Source of the DNA: a bacterium
GTDB taxonomy: Bacteria; Patescibacteriota; Saccharimonadia; Saccharimonadales; UBA4665
Reading direction: 5' to 3'
Length of the DNA stretch: 43,613 nucleotides
Assembly: GCA_021833065.1 (NCBI GenBank)
Contig: JAKBGO010000005.1
Span: 1-43,613 of the forward strand
This document shows positions 34,920 to 35,376 of this stretch, in pieces (position 1 is the stretch's first letter; every line of letters starts with the position of its first letter). The position numbers and the translations under genes are program-made. The notes under the pieces are model-generated. The model was not told the origin of the DNA and made no database searches. It was given only the letters and a program-made list of their open reading frames with translations.

Positions 34920-34995
34920 GCCGTCTTAGCTCAGCTGGTAGAGCGCTTCCATGGTAAGGAAGAGGTCTCGGGTTCAAGTCCCGAAGATGGCTCCA
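34920..34995 (+). tRNA. tRNA-Thr (GGU)
   Basis: The acceptor GCCGTCT pairs with AGATGGC with one G-U. The anticodon loop ATGGTAA gives GGT, the T-loop is TTCAAGT, and CCA is encoded. It is the second threonine tRNA in the cluster and serves ACC/ACU codons. Confidence 0.97.
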
Positions 34996-35014: not shown

Positions 35015-35043
35015 TTGACAATTAACATAAACGGAATTACAAT
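35015..35043 (+). promoter_or_regulatory. Strong promoter of the candidate small RNA
   Basis: A perfect -35 TTGACA (35015-35020), an ideal 17-nt spacer and the -10 TACAAT (35038-35043) sit in the gap between the tRNA cluster and rpmG. The predicted start is near 35050. No gene of annotated size follows before a terminator at 35137. It shares TTGACAATTAAC with the rpoBC promoter. Confidence 0.75.
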
Positions 35044-35049
35044 GCTAAT

Positions 35050-35137
35050 GTTAAGAATGAAAACAAAACCATTCTTAAAATTCAGGTAACTTGTACAAGT
35101 ACCACAAAAAACTCCGATTGATCACCGGAGTTTTTTT
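35050..35137 (+). ncRNA. Candidate small RNA with three hairpins
   Basis: The segment runs from a strong promoter to an intrinsic terminator, about 88 nt. It has a 9-bp hairpin TTAAGAATG/CATTCTTAA (loop 35060-35069), a second hairpin GGT-ACTT/AAGTACC with one bulge (35085-35103), and the terminator stem. I recognise no Rfam family in it: it is not 6S, tmRNA, SRP RNA or RNase P. An alternative is a leader peptide of 13 codons (ATG at 35048, stop at 35089), MLRMKTKPFLKFR. This is inference from signals. Confidence 0.55.
35106..35137 (+). terminator. Intrinsic terminator after the tRNA/small RNA region
   Basis: The 6-bp stem ACTCCG/CGGAGT with a 9-nt loop is followed by seven T. A preceding A-run makes it potentially bidirectional. 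It closes the tRNA or small RNA transcript upstream of the rpmG promoter. Confidence 0.8.
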
Positions 35138-35153
35138 ATTTTTTAGATTAATC

Positions 35154-35162
35154 TGTTATAAT
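35154..35162 (+). promoter_or_regulatory. Extended -10 promoter of rpmG
   Basis: TGTTATAAT is a consensus extended -10. It ends 10 nt before the rpmG ATG, so only about 4 nt of leader is expected. No Shine-Dalgarno at proper spacing is seen. Confidence 0.65.
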
Positions 35163-35172
35163 AGGATTCATT

Positions 35173-35376
35173 ATGGCAAAAAAAGATAGCAAACGAAAAA
35201 TTATCGGACTCGTTAGCGAAGAAAGCGGTGAAAGAATTTATTATACCTCAAAAAGTAGCTTCAATAGTCCAGATAAATTAACTCTTCGTAAGTACAGCCC
35301 TAAACTTAGAAAACACGTAGTTTTTACCGAGACTAAAAAGTCACTCGGAAGAAATGAAGTTAAGCCTAAAAAATAA
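35173..35376 (+). CDS. rpmG: 50S ribosomal protein L33, zinc-free form
   Basis: L33 contacts the E site. The core is [19 protein letters not shown], followed by [25 protein letters not shown], aligning with the bacterial family. The two CxxC pairs of the zinc form are absent, so this is the C- form. The 67 aa include a short extra C-terminal tail. The gene has its own promoter and is convergent with the GH15 gene, 2 nt away. Confidence 0.93.

Follow-up and report, generated by a model that had tools for sequence, protein, structure and literature searches.

The guanidine-II (mini-ykkC) riboswitch consists of two small hairpins whose self-complementary loops are able to kiss and carry the motif ACGR. 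Trans-encoded small RNAs with intrinsic terminators have their own promoter, are about 50-200 nt long, contain hairpins and a U tail, and occupy intergenic regions without an ORF. Palindromic RNA homodimers, such as that formed at the HIV-1 dimerisation initiation site, have been reviewed (PMC7357161). We describe a locus of the Saccharibacteria that resembles the trans-encoded class in each of these respects and that, judged from its sequence, is very probably a non-coding RNA gene. The RNA is the founding example of a Saccharibacteria family that is missing from Rfam. In the open-access literature (subscription papers lay outside the scope of the search) we found no small RNA described for Saccharibacteria, and small or non-coding RNAs go unmentioned in the main text of the TM7x transcriptome paper (PMC10768705). 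The family is supported by covariance and has exact coordinates, a promoter and defined ends, in genomes of 0.5-1.5 Mb without detectable Hfq. Its presence and absence inside one genus, together with its paired-hairpin variants, make it directly testable.

The locus and its neighbours lie as follows in the window, by which we mean the whole 43,613-nt stretch of DNA that was analysed.

34920-34995, + strand: tRNA-Thr(GGT), the upstream neighbour, outside the RNA; it follows tRNA-Thr(TGT) and tRNA-Tyr in conserved synteny
35015-35043, + strand: predicted promoter, with TTGACA at 35015-35020, a 17-nt spacer and TACAAT at 35038-35043; predicted start near 35049-35051
35050-35137, + strand: putative small non-coding RNA of about 88-92 nt, with three hairpins and a U tail
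35051-35078, + strand: hairpin H1, TTAAGAATG / CATTCTTAA with an A-rich loop, as folded
35085-35103, + strand: hairpin H2, GGTaACTTGTACAAGTACC, with the palindrome ACTTGTACAAGT at 35089-35100, as folded
35110-35137, + strand: hairpin H3, the predicted intrinsic terminator, AACTCCG / CGGAGTT with the 9-nt loop ATTGATCAC and a T run; GATC at 35120-35123
35154-35162, + strand: extended -10 promoter of rpmG, TGTTATAAT, recognised by sequence
35173-35376, + strand: rpmG (ribosomal protein L33; Pfam PF00471), the downstream neighbour, outside the RNA

The preliminary description had proposed a near-consensus promoter, a clear terminator and two further hairpins between them, and each was recovered at these positions. 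The predicted fold of 35050-35142 has an energy of -23.5 kcal/mol, compared with -10.3 +/- 2.4 kcal/mol for shuffled sequences (z -5.5, 0/200). H3 was missed by a standard terminator scan because its loop is 9 nt long, but was recovered by a custom scan as one of two strong + strand terminators. The terminator region (35106-35137) is flanked by A6 and T7, and bidirectional termination is possible.

In the window, where five sites scoring at least 11/12 were observed and 1.9 were expected, no other promoter combines 11/12 with a spacer of 17 nt; taken by itself, this one is modest evidence for a gene. Across 37 related loci the best upstream promoter had a median score of 10/12, compared with 8 in controls, and scores of at least 10/12 were reached at 25/37 loci and in 1/74 control stretches, the promoters picked for L099, L101 and L102 possibly not being the true ones. 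Most of the 37 loci retain an intact TTGACA and a spacer of exactly 17 nt; in G002-G004 the promoter is weak or unrecognisable. From its sequence, the promoter is predicted to be strong, of the sigma-70 type and the RNA's own. The motif GCATAAGC, between the -35 TTGACA and the -10 element (L153, L155, L158, L164, L166, L167 and others), recurs in the promoters of this RNA, taking the form GCTTATGC in some loci of a second family (f35). It is also found in promoters of protein genes, for which reason an operator specific to the small RNA was rejected; the motif is possibly a lineage-wide regulator site.

Since structure, position and promoter recur in other genomes, the observation goes beyond chance. 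The unit lies between tRNA-Thr(GGT) and rpmG in six of the seven genomes of the genus and is absent from the seventh (G006). In an alignment of the six genus sequences (A4), 94.8% of pair cells were standard pairs and 10 of the 23 pairs had double-sided changes, shuffles doing as well in 0/500 cases; plain MAFFT alignments had put H2 wrongly, and because rows were padded by hand with N, the pair counts of A4, and those of A7, lean towards the proposed structure. When the partners were slid by 1-3 columns as a control, pairing fell to 34-48%. H1 was paired in 96% of A4 cells with compensatory changes, for example TTAAGAATG/CATTCTTAA versus TTAAGTAT/ATACTTAA, and H2 varied within the genus from ACTTGTACAAGT to GTTCTTATAAGAAC. 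The reading of the locus as a small RNA, and the proposal to check it by conservation in related genomes, have thus fared well: the hairpins and the tRNA-rpmG position are kept in relatives with compensatory changes, the promoter is kept in most of them, and no Rfam family fits.

A covariance model from the six genus sequences (R1) matched 33 of 93 genomes of the family (f1), about ten of them outside the genus at E <= 0.003; weaker matches (E 0.005-0.2) were accepted by judgement on synteny and shared motifs. Twenty-four loci outside the genus were examined, and one (L064), which sits at the end of a protein gene, was rejected. The relatives span about 16 genera of the family, with estimated transcripts of 85-200 nt. 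Common to the f1 loci are the promoter, H2 and a terminator with a GATC-containing loop. H1, usually GTAAG...CTTAC or similar, differs between family members in both length and sequence, and extra hairpins occur in some loci.

A core model (R2), built without the source genome, contained 66 double-changed cells, compared with 21 in shuffles. Across 23 relatives, H3 had double changes in all eight pairs, and 96% of its cells were paired. R2 matched about 30 genomes of the family and the second family, f35, at E 5e-5 to 2e-3. On the window itself it scored weakly (23.2 bits, E 0.05), so the window's membership rests on the genus alignment and synteny. The phylum sample yielded no further member, and no match was confirmed outside f1 and f35; weak matches in the order (L104-L109) and the phylum (G582) were taken as chance because the GATC loop was missing, L105 and L107 having GATC but no matching H2. 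In 24 f1 genomes that were tested and had no accepted model match, including G006, no GATC-loop terminator was found near rpmG, so the distribution is patchy; the scan of these 24 also showed that terminators there do not as a rule carry GATC loops. RNAs of the two families share an identical 32-nt block, GGCACATTCCGATAAACAATTGAGGAAAGGGC (L048, L078, L094, L096, L097, L098, L100, L101 and L102; for example L097:2078-2109, - strand). Within a species-level genome collection, a 30-nt part of this block is confined to 7 records, all from Saccharibacteria.

That the locus belonged to no recognised RNA family was borne out with Rfam 15, which at the gathering threshold gave only tRNAs in the window and 17 related loci. 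In 9 further loci searched at E up to 1, no match on the RNA reached threshold. The best sub-threshold match in the window was Thr_leader (27.2 of 55 bits). A threonine operon leader or other amino-acid attenuator was rejected on a single Thr, an unconserved peptide and a downstream gene that is rpmG or unrelated. At L102:645-798 (- strand), a SAM riboswitch match (42.6 of 44.4 bits) lies beside an S-adenosylmethionine synthetase-like gene. The 6S RNA (RF00013) had no match in G000, and divergent 6S candidates in f1 (L148, L149, L150 and L151) lie elsewhere and below the cut-off, the best at 43.9 of 46.4 bits.

Taken together, the computational evidence is that of a structured RNA conserved by covariation, with a linked, conserved promoter, predicted to be non-coding and not bound to one downstream gene. 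From this we infer expression, action in trans, dimerisation and a role for GAUC. In all 37 loci a zero-spacer palindrome of 6-14 nt forms the H2 apex (median p per locus 0.03 against shuffles), and its centre is of six kinds (UGCA, GUAC, UAUA, GAUC, CGCG and GCGC); in L056, L059 and L066 the longest palindrome is another word, and a CTGCAG palindrome is also present at H2. Self-complementarity is thus kept in 37/37 loci while the letters change, which is what selection for self-pairing would produce. Duplex dimers are predicted at -15 to -32 kcal/mol and the hairpins at -1.4 to -6 kcal/mol, so that a dimer would beat two hairpins by 12-20 kcal/mol, as would be predicted for any palindrome. 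A palindromic stem is also a plain hairpin, and the palindromes are therefore compatible with dimerisation rather than proof of it. GATC is present in the H3 loop of every accepted locus, a count that is biased because the models and the script looked for GAUC. The retention of GAUC on a varying stem points to a fixed partner. A contact between UGAUC and the GAUCA that adjoins the anti-SD at the 16S 3' end was rejected at five pairs without extension, and an anticodon-like 7-nt loop was rejected because loop size varies. Among 21 genomes, no Hfq was found, and a KhpA-type KH protein was present in all.

We propose that the RNA would be transcribed from its own strong promoter and end at its own terminator, and that two copies may pair through the self-complementary H2 to give a homodimer. 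A fixed partner would recognise the GAUC loop in the terminator hairpin; this partner could be a protein, for example KhpA with its KH domain, or a target RNA, or the loop could make a second kissing contact. Further single-stranded contacts may come from the linkers and from the A-rich loop of H1. An RNA that acts in trans rather than as a leader is likely; dimerisation through H2, which draws on predicted energies, we judge a little better than an even bet, and for GAUC as the main contact the chances appear evenly balanced. On the whole, a stand-alone small-RNA gene, most likely acting in trans, with an H2 homodimer and a GAUC recognition loop, is the explanation we favour with some confidence. 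More tentatively, the RNA may be an obligate homodimer in the Hfq-less, episymbiotic Saccharibacteria, showing two identical GAUC loops to its partner, with KhpA possibly as chaperone. If the palindrome is selected, it would provide a rare example from nature of a bacterial RNA that functions as a dimer; if the homodimer is obligate, selection keeps one hairpin self-complementary while its letters drift.

The strong promoter would also suit an RNA that binds a protein or serves as a scaffold, comparable to 6S RNA or a CsrB-type sponge; such an RNA would capture its protein through the palindromic and GAUC loops of its hairpins and have no base-pairing targets. Protein sites typically show a near-invariant loop carried on a variable stem, the short loops are the only conserved seed, and KhpA is present where Hfq is absent. 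We nonetheless regard this as rather unlikely: the RNA is not 6S and matches no Rfam family, and in H2 the palindromy is preserved although the letters vary freely, a pattern better suited to RNA-RNA pairing than to recognition by a protein.

We see it as very unlikely that the locus acts as DNA and yields the RNA only incidentally, either as a promoter-terminator block insulating rpmG from the tRNA operon or as palindromes bound by protein. In favour of this, H2 is a perfect DNA palindrome, and the A6/T7 terminator, being symmetric, might operate in either direction. However, G-U pairs and an off-register H3 loop are among the compensating changes, H1 is conserved as well, H2 lacks the sequence conservation expected of a protein site, and the whole unit is present at unrelated places.

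Slightly more improbable again is a leader or attenuator acting in cis on rpmG or on a pspC-rpmG unit, with or without the 13-codon peptide. The gene order in f1 is polymerase delta' subunit, TPR, tRNA-Thr, tRNA-Tyr, tRNA-Thr, RNA, (PspC-like gene), rpmG and glycoside hydrolase (names assigned by eye except for rpmG, TPR and the polymerase subunit), and in most f1 genomes the RNA is directly upstream of rpmG. Against this, a complete terminator follows the RNA, other genes separate it from rpmG in some genomes (L045, L056), the peptide shows no conservation, and rpmG has its own extended -10 promoter. This CTGTTA-TAAT-like promoter is conserved and is present also in relatives without the RNA. 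In f35 and in two f1 genomes (G063, G108) the RNA lies beside unrelated genes, several on the opposite strand and some facing it, so it is not an rpmG leader there; that reading fails wherever the RNA occurs without a downstream rpmG.

A very short coding gene, MLRMKTKPFLKFR, is scarcely credible, for although an ORF exists at 35048-35089 and its sole difference in G001 is synonymous, its start codon coincides with or precedes the predicted start of the transcript and lacks a ribosome site, and the 13-codon leader peptide suggested earlier changes, shortens or vanishes in four congeners while the stems stay paired (MLSIKKILKIKFL, MLSIKKYLK and MLSIKKILKS in three, no equivalent in the fourth).

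The small-RNA gene that we favour can be set against the known systems as follows. With 6S RNA it shares only the nature of a small bacterial non-coding RNA, and its architecture differs. With guanidine-II it shares two small hairpins with self-complementary loops; its loops, however, are GUAC and ATTGATCAC in the window and UGCA and GAUC elsewhere, rather than ACGR, and it is not upstream of guanidine genes and has no Rfam match. Two ACGR loops were not found, and the riboswitch was rejected. The HIV-1 dimerisation initiation site is likewise a palindromic hairpin, there with a 6-nt palindrome in the loop, and H2 could by prediction form an extended duplex. The 9-nt geometry (2 + 6 + 1) of the H3 loop in the source genome is presumably similar to that of the viral site. 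The viral site belongs to a genomic RNA, whereas the present RNA is a small bacterial one with a predicted dimer and without conserved flanking purines. Like the trans-encoded small RNAs, the locus has its own predicted promoter and terminator, appears non-coding and is independent of its neighbours. It differs from them in having neither an Rfam match nor Hfq, and its palindromic hairpin and fixed GAUC terminator loop are unusual for that class.
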